This document shows, piece after piece, positions 39,131 through 42,738 of a stretch of DNA of 47,624 nucleotides. The DNA comes from Bacteroidia bacterium (lineage in GTDB: Bacteria; Bacteroidota; Bacteroidia; B-17B0; Aurantibacillaceae). The DNA lies in the NCBI GenBank assembly GCA_022841465.1, contig JALHRL010000027.1, positions 3,577-51,200 on the forward strand, written 5' to 3'. The number at the start of each line of letters is the position of its first letter. Positions within the stretch are counted from its first letter, which is position 1. The notes beneath the pieces are model-generated. The model ran no database searches. It was not told the origin of the DNA and was given only the letters and a program-made list of their open reading frames with translations. Both the position numbers and the translations under genes were made by a program.

Positions 39131-40165
39131 TTAGTTTAGTTCTTTAAGCCCTTGTTCTGCAGCAGCAAAATTGGGGTCAATTACCAAACATTTTCTATAA
39201 TCTTCAGCTGCATTTTTTTTGTTGCCAAGTTTAGCATAGCTGTATGCTCTTCCAAAATAAGGTGCGGCCCAAGCTTCGTTAAGTTTAATGGCATCCGAAA
39301 ATTTCTCTATCGCTTTTGTATAGTCTTTTTTAATATCTAAATAAATTGCCCCTAGGTTGTAATGAGCTTCCAGATAGTTTTTATCTTTTGTTAATAATAA
39401 ATTATATTCTAAAATAGCATCGTCGTATTTTTCTAAATCTTGAAGCAGTTTTCCTTTTGCATAAACCGCATTTAAATAGCTGCTGTTGTTTTTTAAAACA
39501 TTATTAAAGTATTCAAATGCTAAAGTATTTTTACGTGCCGCATAAATTATCCCTAAATCGTAATACGCATCTAAAAACAAATTATCTTGTTCTATTGCAG
39601 TCTCTAAACTGGATACAGCTCTTGCCGTATCACCACTTTCTCTGTAAATACTTCCTTTCAAGTAATAGGCCTTGGATAAATTTTCGTTTATTTTTAATGC
39701 TTTATTTATATTTTCAATTGCCTTTTGATATTGTTTTACAATAAAATATAATTCTGAAAGCTTCATTAAAGCCTCTGTGCTTTCAGGAAACTTAATTACC
39801 GTTCTTTCCAAAATTTCTTTTGTTTCGCGGGTTTTATTTTCGGCAAAATATACATCGCCTAATGCAATGTAATAAGATGCGATTGTACTATCTATTCTTA
39901 TAGCTCTTTTTGCATCTCCTGCAGCTTCTTCAAATTGTTTGTATTGAATATAGAGCTGACTTCTTTTAATGTATAAGTCGGGGTTAGAGGGGTCTTGTAA
40001 CAACTGCGCATTAATTGCTTTTAATTCAGGTGAATTAAGTTTAATACTTAAACTGTCCGCTTTTTCAATTTCTTGTTTGGTAATAACATCATTGTTGCTA
40101 CATGAAAACAATAAACAGGTTAAAGCAATTAAGAATTGCAATTTATAATTAAAGTTCGTTTGCAT
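39131..40165 (-). CDS. TPR-repeat lipoprotein
   Basis: From the ATG at 40165 the protein has 344 residues. A lipoprotein signal ends in LLFSC with Cys 22. The remainder (about 50-340) consists of roughly eight tetratricopeptide repeats (examples: AIRIDSTIASYYIALGDVYF, AHYNLGAIYLDIKKDYTKA), typical for protein-protein scaffolds. It is anchored in a membrane facing the periplasm. The start overlaps the end of the Fe-S protein gene by 17 bases, so the two are translated from one mRNA. An extension to a TTG at 40171 is possible but less likely. Confidence 0.88.
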   Translation of the reverse strand: MQTNFNYKLQFLIALTCLLFSCSNNDVITKQEIEKADSLSIKLNSPELKAINAQLLQDPSNPDLYIKRSQLYIQYKQFEEAAGDAKRAIRIDSTIASYYIALGDVYFAENKTRETKEILERTVIKFPESTEALMKLSELYFIVKQYQKAIENINKALKINENLSKAYYLKGSIYRESGDTARAVSSLETAIEQDNLFLDAYYDLGIIYAARKNTLAFEYFNNVLKNNSSYLNAVYAKGKLLQDLEKYDDAILEYNLLLTKDKNYLEAHYNLGAIYLDIKKDYTKAIEKFSDAIKLNEAWAAPYFGRAYSYAKLGNKKNAAEDYRKCLVIDPNFAAAEQGLKELN

Positions 40166-40937
40166 TTGCAATTAGTTCGGCAATGTCTAATACTTTTGTT
40201 TTTTCTTCTTTATTAAAGTGTTTCACGCCGTCAGTCATCATGGTGTTGCAAAACGGACAACCAACAGCAATTACATCAGGATTTTCCTGCAAAGCTTCTT
40301 CAGCTCGTTCGGTACTCACTTCTTTGTTTCCTTTTTCTGCTTCTTTAAACATTTGCGCTCCACCTGCACCGCAGCAAAATCCGTTAGCTCTGCTTCGTTT
40401 CATTTCTGCTAATTCTGCATCTAGTTTTTGTAAAACTTCTCTTGGTGCTTCGTAAACATCGTTGGCTCTACCTAGATAACATGGGTCGTGGTAAACAATT
40501 TTCTTTCCCTTAAAACTTCCTCCATTCACTTTTAATTTTCCGGTGTTAATTAAATCTTGAACTAATTGTGTATGATGAACAACTTCGTAACTTCCTCCTA
40601 AAGCAGGATATTCGTTTTTAATAGTATTAAAACAATGCGGACAACCGGTTACAATTTTTTTAACACCATACATATTCATGGTAGTTATATTTTGCATGGC
40701 TTGCATTTGATATAAAAACTCGTTTCCGGCACGTTTAGCAGGGTCGCCTGTGCAACCTTCTTCACTTCCTAAAATAGCAAACTTAATTCCAACATGATTT
40801 AAAATTCTAACAATTGCTTTGGTGATTTTTTTTGCTCTATCATCAAAACTTCCGCTACAGCCAACCCAAAATAAAATCTCAGGTGTTTCGCCATTAGCCA
40901 TCATTTCGGCCATTGTTGGTACTTTAATTACTGACAT
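40149..40937 (-). CDS. cysteine-rich (CCG-domain) Fe-S oxidoreductase subunit, HdrB/GlcF-like
   Basis: The 262-residue protein contains two CCG cysteine-rich domains: FWVGCSGSFDDRA with GCPHCFNTIKNEYP in the first half, and HDPCYLGRANDVYE, RANGFCCGAGGAQMF and VGCPFCNTMMTDG in the second. These domains hold a non-cubane or 4Fe-4S cluster in heterodisulfide reductase subunit B and in the C-terminal part of glycolate oxidase GlcF. It has no membrane segment and probably docks on the membrane subunit encoded at 41431. Substrate and electron partner are unknown. The four-helix-bundle gene separates it from its partner. Confidence 0.9.
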   Translation of the reverse strand: MSVIKVPTMAEMMANGETPEILFWVGCSGSFDDRAKKITKAIVRILNHVGIKFAILGSEEGCTGDPAKRAGNEFLYQMQAMQNITTMNMYGVKKIVTGCPHCFNTIKNEYPALGGSYEVVHHTQLVQDLINTGKLKVNGGSFKGKKIVYHDPCYLGRANDVYEAPREVLQKLDAELAEMKRSRANGFCCGAGGAQMFKEAEKGNKEVSTERAEEALQENPDVIAVGCPFCNTMMTDGVKHFNKEEKTKVLDIAELIANANEL

Positions 40938-40938
40938 A

Positions 40939-41349
40939 TTAATAAGTTTTAAAGTTAGCGGTTGCAGTTGGCAGTTTTGCCGGTGAAAACTTCTCGGGTG
41001 AATTCATCATACTCCCTAGCATTCTGCCAACCTGTAAATATTCTTCCATTAATAATTTATGTTTTTCCTCTGTAATGTATCCACAATCTTTTGCAAAGTC
41101 TAAATGAACCATTGTTTCCGCACACTCCCCATCTGAATCAGTTAATTTAGATATAAAGTGTTTAGGATAAATTCTTTTTCTATAACCTTCAGCAATATTT
41201 GCACACACAGAACGTGATGATCTCCTGATTTGATCTGTTAAGGAATAAATTTCTTCCTTTGGAAATTTCTTACTTTCGGAATAAATCTCCATAGCAGCAG
41301 TATATGCTTTTTTGTATACGGTTAAGTCTTTATATCCTTGGCTACTCAT
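40939..41349 (-). CDS. four helix bundle protein (23S rRNA intervening-sequence S23 family)
   Basis: The 136-residue protein belongs to the S23 / four helix bundle family first seen inside intervening sequences of 23S rRNA genes. Signatures are DLTVYKKAYTAAMEIY, FPKEEIYSLTDQIRRSSRS, VCANIAEGYRK and GECAETMVHLDFAKDCGYIT. The proteins form pentameric bundles; the function is unknown. Here the gene is not in rRNA but between two Fe-S subunit genes that normally would be adjacent. Imperfect 25/26-base inverted repeats (40952-40976 and 41393-41418) flank it, one of them inside its own 3' coding end. This looks like an inserted element. Confidence 0.92.
   Translation of the reverse strand: MSSQGYKDLTVYKKAYTAAMEIYSESKKFPKEEIYSLTDQIRRSSRSVCANIAEGYRKRIYPKHFISKLTDSDGECAETMVHLDFAKDCGYITEEKHKLLMEEYLQVGRMLGSMMNSPEKFSPAKLPTATANFKTY
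40952..40976. repeat. left arm of imperfect inverted repeat around the four-helix-bundle gene
   Basis: This 25-base arm pairs with 41393-41418 at about 20 of 26 positions when one strand is reversed and complemented; shared blocks are AAGTT, GC, TTGCAGT and GCAGTT. It lies within the last codons of the four-helix-bundle gene, encoding the Pro-Thr-Ala-Thr-Ala-Asn part of its tail. Confidence 0.6.
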
Positions 41350-41392
41350 TTTATTCTTACTACAACTATTCTTTTCTTAAATTCTCAATTTT

Positions 41393-41418
41393 AACTGCTT
41401 ACTGCAATTTGCCAACTT
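41393..41418. repeat. right arm of imperfect inverted repeat around the four-helix-bundle gene
   Basis: The partner of 40952-40976, located 44 bases upstream of the four-helix-bundle start and 13 bases beyond the stop of the membrane Fe-S subunit gene. Together the arms would let the whole insert fold back as a long stem, as intervening sequences in 23S rRNA do. Confidence 0.6.
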
Positions 41419-41430
41419 TTTACTTAAAAA

Positions 41431-42738
41431 TTAATTTTCATTAATCCAATTAGCTCGGTCGGCTTGGCTAAATTGCCAAGGCGCACCGTTATTTTCCATA
41501 TTGCTGAACATGTTATTTAACTCGGCAGGGCTTTGGCTTTGTTCCATAACCAAATACCTGCGCATTTCAACAATAATTTCCAATGGATTTATATTTACCG
41601 GACATTCTTCTACGCAAGCATTGCAAGTGTTACATGCCCAAATTTCTTCGGTTGTAATGTAATCTCCTAAAAGAGATTTACCATCTTCAACAAATTTACC
41701 GCCGTTTGCATCCATGTTTTTCCCAACCTCTACCAATCTATCTCTTGTATCCATCATTATTTTACGTGGCGAAAGCTTTTTTCCTGTAATGTTTTGAGGG
41801 CAAGCAGAAGTACATCTTCCGCACTCTGTACATGTATACGCATCTAATAAATTTTTCCAAGTTAAATCCTGAACATCTTTCACGCCAAATTTAACCGGAT
41901 TGTTAGGATCGGTTTTTGGTTGATACGAAGGGTCAAAATTTGGAGCAACTACATCGGTAACAGATTCTAGTGTTGTGAACTCGCCTTTAGGTTTTAAATT
42001 TGAATAGTAGGTGTTAGGAAAAGCTAGAACAATGTGTAAATGTTTAGAGTAAGGCAAATAATTTAAAAAGGCAAAAATTCCGATGATGTGAAACCACCAG
42101 CAGCCTCTTTCAATTAATATTAGAGAAGAATCACTTAAACCACTTAGCATAGGTGCTATAAATGAGCTGATAGGAAAACTTCCGGCTTGGGTATAATGTT
42201 CAACACCTCTTGCTTGTAAATTTTGATCAGCAGCATTCATTAAAAATAATGCGCTCATTAATAAAGTTTCTGCAATTAAAATCATATTTGCATCCAATCG
42301 TGGCCAACCGTTTAATTCTGCATTTAAAAACCGTTTTACTTTTCCAACATTTCTTCTTAACCAAAAAACAATTACACCAACAAAAACACCAAAGGCTAAA
42401 ATTTCAAAAAAGCCAATTAAAAAATTATAGAAACCGCCCAAAAAGCTAAATACACGATGTGTGTTTACAACACCATCAATCAACATTTCCAATACCTCAA
42501 TGTTTATTAAAACAAATCCTACGTATACTAAAATATGTAAGGTTGCTGAAAGCGGACGTGTAACCATTTTACTTTGGCCTAAAGCAACACGCAACATGGT
42601 TTTCCACCGTTCACTTTTGTTATCGCTTAAATCAAGTTCTCTGCCTAATAAAATATTTCTTCTTATTTTTTTTGCGTTGAAAACAAAAAACACAGTGCTT
42701 GCAATAAGTAAAGCGCAGAATAGTATGGAACTTATCAT
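41431..42738 (-). CDS. membrane-bound 4Fe-4S oxidoreductase subunit
   Basis: The 435-residue protein has about five or six membrane helices in its first 260 residues, resembling the heme/quinone module of nitrate-reductase gamma or HdrE type, then two 4Fe-4S ferredoxin motifs: CTECGRCTSACPQ (Cys from about 303) and CNTCNACVEECPV (Cys from about 369). With the CCG-domain protein at 40149 it would form a membrane electron-transfer complex similar to HdrDE or the Fe-S/membrane parts of quinone-linked oxidoreductases. The substrate is not known. The gene starts 6 bases after mlaD ends, so it belongs to the same operon. Confidence 0.9.
   Translation of the reverse strand: MISSILFCALLIASTVFFVFNAKKIRRNILLGRELDLSDNKSERWKTMLRVALGQSKMVTRPLSATLHILVYVGFVLINIEVLEMLIDGVVNTHRVFSFLGGFYNFLIGFFEILAFGVFVGVIVFWLRRNVGKVKRFLNAELNGWPRLDANMILIAETLLMSALFLMNAADQNLQARGVEHYTQAGSFPISSFIAPMLSGLSDSSLILIERGCWWFHIIGIFAFLNYLPYSKHLHIVLAFPNTYYSNLKPKGEFTTLESVTDVVAPNFDPSYQPKTDPNNPVKFGVKDVQDLTWKNLLDAYTCTECGRCTSACPQNITGKKLSPRKIMMDTRDRLVEVGKNMDANGGKFVEDGKSLLGDYITTEEIWACNTCNACVEECPVNINPLEIIVEMRRYLVMEQSQSPAELNNMFSNMENNGAPWQFSQADRANWINEN

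Follow-up and report, generated by a model that had tools for sequence, protein, structure and literature searches.

The segment at positions 40939–41430 of the window, i.e., of the whole 47,624-nt stretch of Bacteroidia bacterium DNA that was analysed, is read here, with slightly better than even confidence, as a copy of a small mobile element that has no transposase of its own and whose S23 protein would act on the DNA ends; the intervening sequences (IVSs) of rRNA genes would be the same element. S23 genes are known mainly from insertions in rRNA genes; outside rRNA, the S23 gene and the inverted arrays of 7-nt repeats at its two ends (the arms) come and go as a unit, and the same anatomy recurs throughout the genus and across many phyla. 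The likelihood given to this reading comes from the family-wide tests, and less from the window copy or from the pair of loci L157/L160 considered below. The locus contains the following features, listed in the direction of transcription.

41431–42738, reverse strand: upstream gene A, a membrane protein with a 4Fe-4S dicluster domain (subunit A); ORF with matches to Fer4_8, Fer4_9 and others
40939–41430, reverse strand: the entire insert, from directly after the stop of A to directly before the start of B
41393–41420, reverse strand: left arm, an imperfect heptamer array, in sense GCAGTAA-GCAGTT(A) with GTTGGCA preceding; identified by its sequence, its complementarity to the right arm and the period of 7 of such arms
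40939–41349, reverse strand: gene of the S23 / 23S_rRNA_IVP four-helix-bundle protein, 136 aa; PF05635, TIGR02436 and structure model
40951–40978, reverse strand: right arm, the inverted heptamer array CTGCCAA-CTGCAAC-CGCTAAC, within the S23 coding tail; identified by sequence and complementarity
40149–40937, reverse strand: downstream gene B, a CCG cysteine-rich Fe-S protein (subunit B); ORF with a match to PF02754

The ORFs and the profile matches confirm the earlier note's description of an S23-type gene exactly between two Fe-S subunit genes on one strand; gene A also has weak HdrC/SdhB-like matches in the profile search. The S23 protein of the window clearly belongs to PF05635 (119.2 bits, cut-off 33.8) and TIGR02436 (113.1 bits, cut-off 24), and its AlphaFold2 model (pLDDT 88.6) contains four long helices, and its tail is poorly ordered; the part of the tail encoded by the right arm has a mean pLDDT of 60 and 43 for the last two residue blocks. 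The structure matches of the model are 2gsc and 2rld, followed by Avd (4dwl, TM 0.71/0.89), and the comparison with 2gsc_B (TM 0.79/0.91) bears out a four-helix bundle fold of the model. S23 is the sole ORF of at least 80 aa within 40939–41430, and among ORFs of this size no transposase, of the kind that marks an autonomous insertion sequence or transposon, was found between the inverted repeats. The flanks at 40149 and 41431 are protein-coding, and the window copy is not surrounded by rRNA; the IVS-like trait that it does possess is a pair of terminal inverted repeats around a sense S23 ORF.

The arms of the window copy are complementary at 20 of 26 positions (41418–41393 against 40976–40952), just as had been estimated beforehand, and the right arm indeed encodes the S23 tail. 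When the alignment is limited to the spacers and the S23 tail, its score is 15. Scores this high arise in 16 of 2000 dinucleotide shuffles and in 5 of 941 pairs of window segments of equal size and spacing. With wider flanks, where the alignment extends into the neighbouring genes, the score is 20–21; none of 1000 shuffles reaches this, two of 313 segment pairs reach 20 and none reaches 21, and the match beats 98% of swapped right flanks. Taken by themselves, the window arms are above chance, but only moderately significant. Their composition of 7-nt repeat arrays, which goes beyond the earlier note, is common to most of the S23 genes tested.

The genome of the window contains two further S23 copies, one at a junction read as sufB-sufC and the other at one read as pdhA-pdhC. 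A search for other four-helix-bundle genes with the same terminal repeats had been proposed; both additional genes possess inverted arms (3 of 1000 and 1 of 1000 shuffles are as good), the arms of each being made of a different word. S23 genes are present in 32 of 40 genomes of the genus, and 107 distinct copies were sampled, some S23 matches of the 40-genome count being left out. In 68 of the 106 copies whose flanks are complete, the match between the left and right flanks of the copy itself ranks above 95% of swapped flanks, and in 79 of the 106 it ranks above 95% of dinucleotide shuffles; background genes pass the swap test in 4 of 110 cases in co-directional triplets and in 4 of 110 cases at large. 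The self-match of 148 genus arms is in excess at shifts of 7 (+0.166), 14 (+0.133) and 8 (+0.046), and is zero or below at most other shifts. Period-7 runs were found in the flanks of 58 of the 107 copies against 2.3 expected, period-8 runs in 13 against 1.0, and runs of periods 6 and 9 in 4 and 5, respectively, each against 1.6, the expectations being derived from 400 kb of one congener plus the window. The same sequence was used to consider a general heptamer background as the source of the arms, which was rejected: the strict scan revealed no period-7 array at 18/21, and the background at 15/21 amounts to 0.96 runs per 10 kb.

The arms have a polarity, the left one containing more G than C on the sense strand in 69 of 74 genus elements with an arm score of at least 17. 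Both neighbours are co-directional with S23 in 101 of 105 genus copies, compared with 130 of 269 genes, and 31 of 48 genes of similar size, in a background of one congener with crude ORF calls; the median gaps flanking S23 are 44 and 37 nt. The median dN/dS of S23 is 0.16 over 57 pairs, which indicates that the protein is kept by purifying selection. The copies occupy 37 junction classes, including those which we take, from the sequences of the neighbours, to be pdhA-pdhC, sufB-sufC and, probably, nuoJ-nuoK and sdhA-sdhB. At the sufB-sufC junction, 13 of 30 loci were usable (16 apparently involve the paralogue sufD and one lacks sufB), and these contain S23 in five cases, another gene in one and a short junction in seven. 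Inspection by eye of the pdhA-pdhC junction distinguished three or more S23 kinds, which differ in their arms. Among 15 gene-less pdhA-pdhC loci of 40–200 nt, four (L120, L121, L130 and L136) fold with z < -2.5 relative to mononucleotide shuffles, and three of these four hairpins contain period-7 runs of at least 16/21; this is suggestive of possible remnants of S23 elements.

The pattern extends far beyond the genus. A scan of genome contigs yielded at least 493 S23 relatives, of which the best 80 loci, from many phyla, were kept, 79 of them with full flanks; all pan-bacterial figures in this paragraph refer to these best 80 of at least 493. Own flanks beat 95% of swaps in 60 of the 79 loci, although this test is inflated here by differing base composition; against dinucleotide shuffles of their own flanks, the arms of 59 of the 79 reach p ≤ 0.05 and those of 56 reach p ≤ 0.005, so that significant arms are lacking in 20 of the 79 in the shuffle test. 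Period-7 runs occur in 47 of the 79 loci (1.0 in shuffles) and period-8 runs in 14 (1.4 in shuffles), the excess of self-match at shift 7 is +0.23 for 112 arms, and the left arm is richer in G than in C in the sense direction in 54 of 56 elements with an arm score of at least 17. Both neighbours are co-directional in 55 of 73 loci, a weaker tendency than in the genus. The arm words include GGGAATA around S23 in Anabaena and Sphaerospermopsis (L302 and L337) and GGCAGTA in Bosea. Among the heptameric simple repeats of bacteria are the cyanobacterial STRRs. An Rfam scan of 20 of these loci found one S23 gene in rRNA, located with significant inverted arms inside the 16S rRNA gene of a Sungbacteria MAG (L278:1126–2606).

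Two side observations concern the wider family. Among the matches listed, loci L266–L272 and L276 encode S23 proteins 57–70% identical to that of the window; they belong to other Bacteroidota, but also to MAGs of Anaerolineales, Acidobacteria/Terriglobia and Cloacimonadota, a spread that may reflect transfer across phyla or errors in binning. In Flaviramulus basaltis, a Flavo-1 RNA (Rfam RF01705) lies near an S23 gene (L277:568–649).

Ends of the same kind surround another type of gene. In six genomes, the junction between genes A and B is occupied by a nuclease-like GxxExxY gene, which is enclosed by inverted CACTAAG arrays of its own. GxxExxY genes (PF13366/TIGR04256) with matching inverted arrays on either side were observed in L028, L029, L032, L251, L254 and L260, all at the A/B junction, and in L219–L248; the array words include CACTAAG, ACACATAG and CGCAGATGA. 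The own flanks of GxxExxY genes beat 95% of swaps in 16 of 33 cases, and 15 of the 23 genes with both neighbours read are co-directional with them, i.e., these genes are less bound to the sense orientation than S23.

The A/B junction was read in 34 genus genomes, including that of the window (the downstream gene is present in 37 of the 40, three of which were not fetched), and it is variable: S23 is found in seven genomes, GxxExxY in six, a short junction in 14 and something else in seven, so S23 is missing or replaced in 27 of the 34. One of the seven S23 carriers, G002, has a divergent kind. The short junctions are only 9–102 nt long, and that of G003 retains a piece of an S23-type array. 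The other occupants comprise a HAD-like gene in three genomes (a label resting on weak matches of one copy), a RelE/ParE-like pair in two (named from the translation as read, rather than from a search), a T9SS protein and a gene-less array; the RelE/ParE-like toxin-antitoxin pair occupies, in G048 and G043 (L253 and L264), the place where other species have S23. On the 34-tip tree, the state of the junction changes 17 times, against a mean of 17.6 in shuffles, which means that there is no phylogenetic signal, and one shallow clade contains S23, GxxExxY and short sites side by side.

Comparison of related genomes, which the earlier note had recommended, revealed S23-free sites with a clean junction (L257/L258 against the filled L024). 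The filled junction of G007 reads AACGAA/CAGTAGGCAGT...GCTGAC/TAAAAAACTATTTATATG and the short one of G032 reads AACGAA/AGT/TAAAAAACTATTTATG; in this pair, the element is placed just before the stop codon of the short site, the left array supplies the upstream gene with a new stop, while the S23 frame runs to the stop shared by both sites. The short sites may never have been filled or else may have been precisely emptied. In L037 (the A/B junction of G018), a partial CACTAAG array of the GxxExxY type precedes the heptamer array of the S23 element, and the site appears to bear the traces of two successive insertions. A site fixed in all relatives, with an unconserved repeat and no other copies, had been named in advance as the outcome contrary to insertion; the site is variable and the type of arm tracks the protein, the similarity of arms decreasing with S23 protein distance within junctions (rho -0.69).

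The clearest case of unit behaviour is that of L149 and L150, which belong to two species and are near-identical from arm to arm, the exceptions being a 23-nt gap and some differences in the left arm; third-position identity is 0.98 in S23 and 0.70 and 0.78 in the flanking genes, and the edges lie at the arms. Thus, arm-to-arm exchange between species has taken place in at least one case. In L157/L160, identity rises sharply at the left arm, where the two arms are one 7-nt unit apart, and the third-position identity of S23 (0.87) exceeds that of the upstream gene (0.48); the downstream gene has an identity of 0.79, so the right edge is not sharp. One protein and arm type is found at different junctions, namely sufC-sufD in L093 (G047) and sufB-sufC in L061, and G035 (L077) has two S23 copies about 1.4 kb apart, at different junctions, whose likeness spans the two arrays and what lies between them and hardly extends past them.

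These cases have to be weighed against an alternative in which the ancestor of the genus already had S23 at each junction and the gene was then inherited vertically and repeatedly lost, the arrays being slippage-prone DNA that grew beside S23. The third-position identity of S23 exceeds that of both flanks by at least 0.10 in only 5 of 248 same-junction pairs, i.e., in the remaining 243 S23 is not closer than both flanks by this margin; both flanks exceed S23 by as much in 18 of the 248, and the nearest S23 relative is found at the same junction in 73 of 87 cases. Since S23 mostly tracks its flanks and its nearest relatives mostly share its junction, the patchy distribution could be mainly due to ancestral presence and repeated loss. 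In the pair G051/G047, as in L157/L160, the likeness continues into the downstream gene, and ordinary homologous recombination can therefore carry S23. Frequent or free hopping was rejected on the basis of third positions (5 of 248 pairs); together with the 73 of 87 nearest relatives, these point to descent with the junction plus loss as the usual history and to exchange as an occasional event. However, an ancestral gene accounts poorly for the exchange of L149/L150 as an arm-to-arm unit, for the different S23 kinds and arms seen by eye at pdhA-pdhC and for the same protein and arm type at other junctions, and independent slippage on each side would not yield mutually matching arms; this alternative is, accordingly, considered unlikely.

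Another explanation, which we regard as rather improbable, treats the insert as an intervening sequence of mRNA: the arms would form a stem in the operon transcript, RNase III would cut it as it does in rRNA, and the arms would be retained owing to a need of the host to remove the insert or to separate the cistrons. The insert can fold as a stem, as had been predicted, both the MFE and the centroid structure pairing the arms around the whole ORF; the fold is just modestly better than those of shuffles (z = -2.1, with 2 of 100 shuffles folding equally well). The sense placement between co-directional genes (101 of 105 copies) and the cleavage of rRNA IVS stems by RNase III, described in PMC4990558, also agree with such processing. 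GxxExxY genes, however, have the same kind of ends and are co-directional in just 15 of 23 cases. The mismatches in the arms are more telling: an RNA stem tolerates G·U, but not A·C, and selection for an RNA stem should favour G·U. There are 122 G·U against 134 A·C mismatches in the genus, 96 against 111 across phyla (the best 80 of at least 493) and 43 against 52 in the GxxExxY arms, i.e., G·U is not in excess in any of the three sets, which speaks for the upkeep of the arms at the DNA level, beside which an RNA role may still exist. Selection for an RNA stem was rejected as the reason for the arms on this ground. The earlier note had proposed that the element moves or folds as a unit outside rRNA and is perhaps excised from, or tolerated in, mRNA; the unit is borne out by the clean S23-free sites, the exchange of L149/L150, the left edge of L157/L160 and the type shared between different junctions, but excision from, or folding in, mRNA is not supported as the reason for the arms.

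That the element is non-autonomous and depends on a REP-type Y1 transposase or a reverse transcriptase acting in trans, with S23 as an Avd-like helper, is very doubtful, since, although the S23 model resembles Avd (TM as given above; bAvd 40.8 bits) and Y1_Tnp is found in 29 of 40 genomes, G016 has four S23 copies and no Y1 match, G002 has seven copies but lacks an RVT_1 match (in both cases, a gene may be hidden by the draft state of the genome), and G014 and G045 have three Y1 matches each and no S23. As a required partner, either enzyme was set aside as unlikely, S23 copies being found without a detectable one in these draft genomes.

The mobile-element reading, to which we return, can be outlined as follows. 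The element has S23 as its only gene, sits in sense between the genes of an operon and ends in imperfect inverted 7-nt arrays, as a rule G-rich on the left and C-rich on the right in the sense direction; its left array starts where the upstream gene ends, and its right array codes for the S23 tail. The S23 protein, which forms five four-helix bundles in a solved relative, might bind both heptamer arrays in DNA and hold the ends together; joining would then be performed by host replication or recombination enzymes, since no transposase, integrase or reverse transcriptase is carried. The sense orientation and the place of insertion could result from selection, if the element relies on the operon transcript and is tolerated only where no gene is broken. 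Once placed, it would mostly descend with the junction, often be lost and sometimes be exchanged between species, and an S23-carrying rRNA IVS would be this same element after insertion into an rRNA gene.

Perhaps, and here our confidence is somewhat short of even, S23 elements constitute a class of mobile elements that lack a transposase, occur across the bacteria and are defined by their inverted heptamer arrays; rRNA IVSs and many bacterial heptamer repeats would be the visible parts of this class, and the S23 pentamer would be an end-binding protein of a new kind which, together with host enzymes, promotes movement or exchange. If S23 genes generally carry inverted heptamer arrays at both ends, the puzzles of the rRNA IVSs and of the heptamer repeats may be one. 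In that case, carriers and their insert-free relatives would also allow tests of mobility, DNA binding and RNA processing in ordinary operons, and small genes annotated as 'four helix bundle' in conserved operons can be inserts rather than subunits.

Comparison with known systems places the element next to several others. Avd is the partner of reverse transcriptase in diversity-generating retroelements. The S23 protein of the window shares with it the four-helix fold (4dwl) and a weak profile match, but scores below the Avd equivalog cut-off (38.8 against 80 bits), and no reverse transcriptase is adjacent, the single RVT_1 match of the genome being located on contig C6 and the window on C27. 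The likeness of Avd and PF05635 is noted in PMC10053308. The proteins 2gsc (XCC0516) and 2rld (BT_0352) belong to the same sequence family and fold (PF05635/TIGR02436), are titled as proteins of unknown function and contain five chains each; the title of the 2gsc paper, as cited in PMC10053308, mentions five four-helix bundles. PMC5524665 tabulates, among phage elements, a four-helix-bundle gene flanked by the genes of guanylate kinase and nicotinic acid mononucleotide adenylyltransferase, a placement that fits the operon-junction pattern of S23. No paper linking S23 genes in general to heptamer arrays or operon junctions was found in the open literature, preprints excluded, as represented mostly by titles and the openings of abstracts.

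The arms resemble the heptameric simple repeats of bacteria, for which the available portions of PMC4692102 and PMC4679880 describe 7-nt intergenic tandem arrays, G-rich in two cases and forming inverted pairs in Xanthomonas (GGGAATC in Xanthomonas, GGGGA(C/T)T in Nostoc and TAACTGA in Beggiatoaceae), ascribed so far mainly to polymerase slippage; the term S23 is absent from these portions. Unlike the repeats so described, the arrays considered here are the two ends of an S23 element. The closest parallel is provided by the S23 IVSs of 23S rRNA in Leptospira and Coxiella, which, according to PMC4990558, combine one sense S23 ORF, pairable terminal inverted repeats, a sporadic distribution and suspected horizontal transfer; in the Coxiella IVS, which likewise ends in inverted repeats, tandem heptamers (GACAGAT) precede the S23 ORF, and the function and origin of rRNA IVSs are still called unclear there more than 25 years after their discovery. 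The elements described here differ from the rRNA IVSs in showing no sign of RNA-level selection, in having an operon junction as host and in bearing heptamer arrays at both ends.
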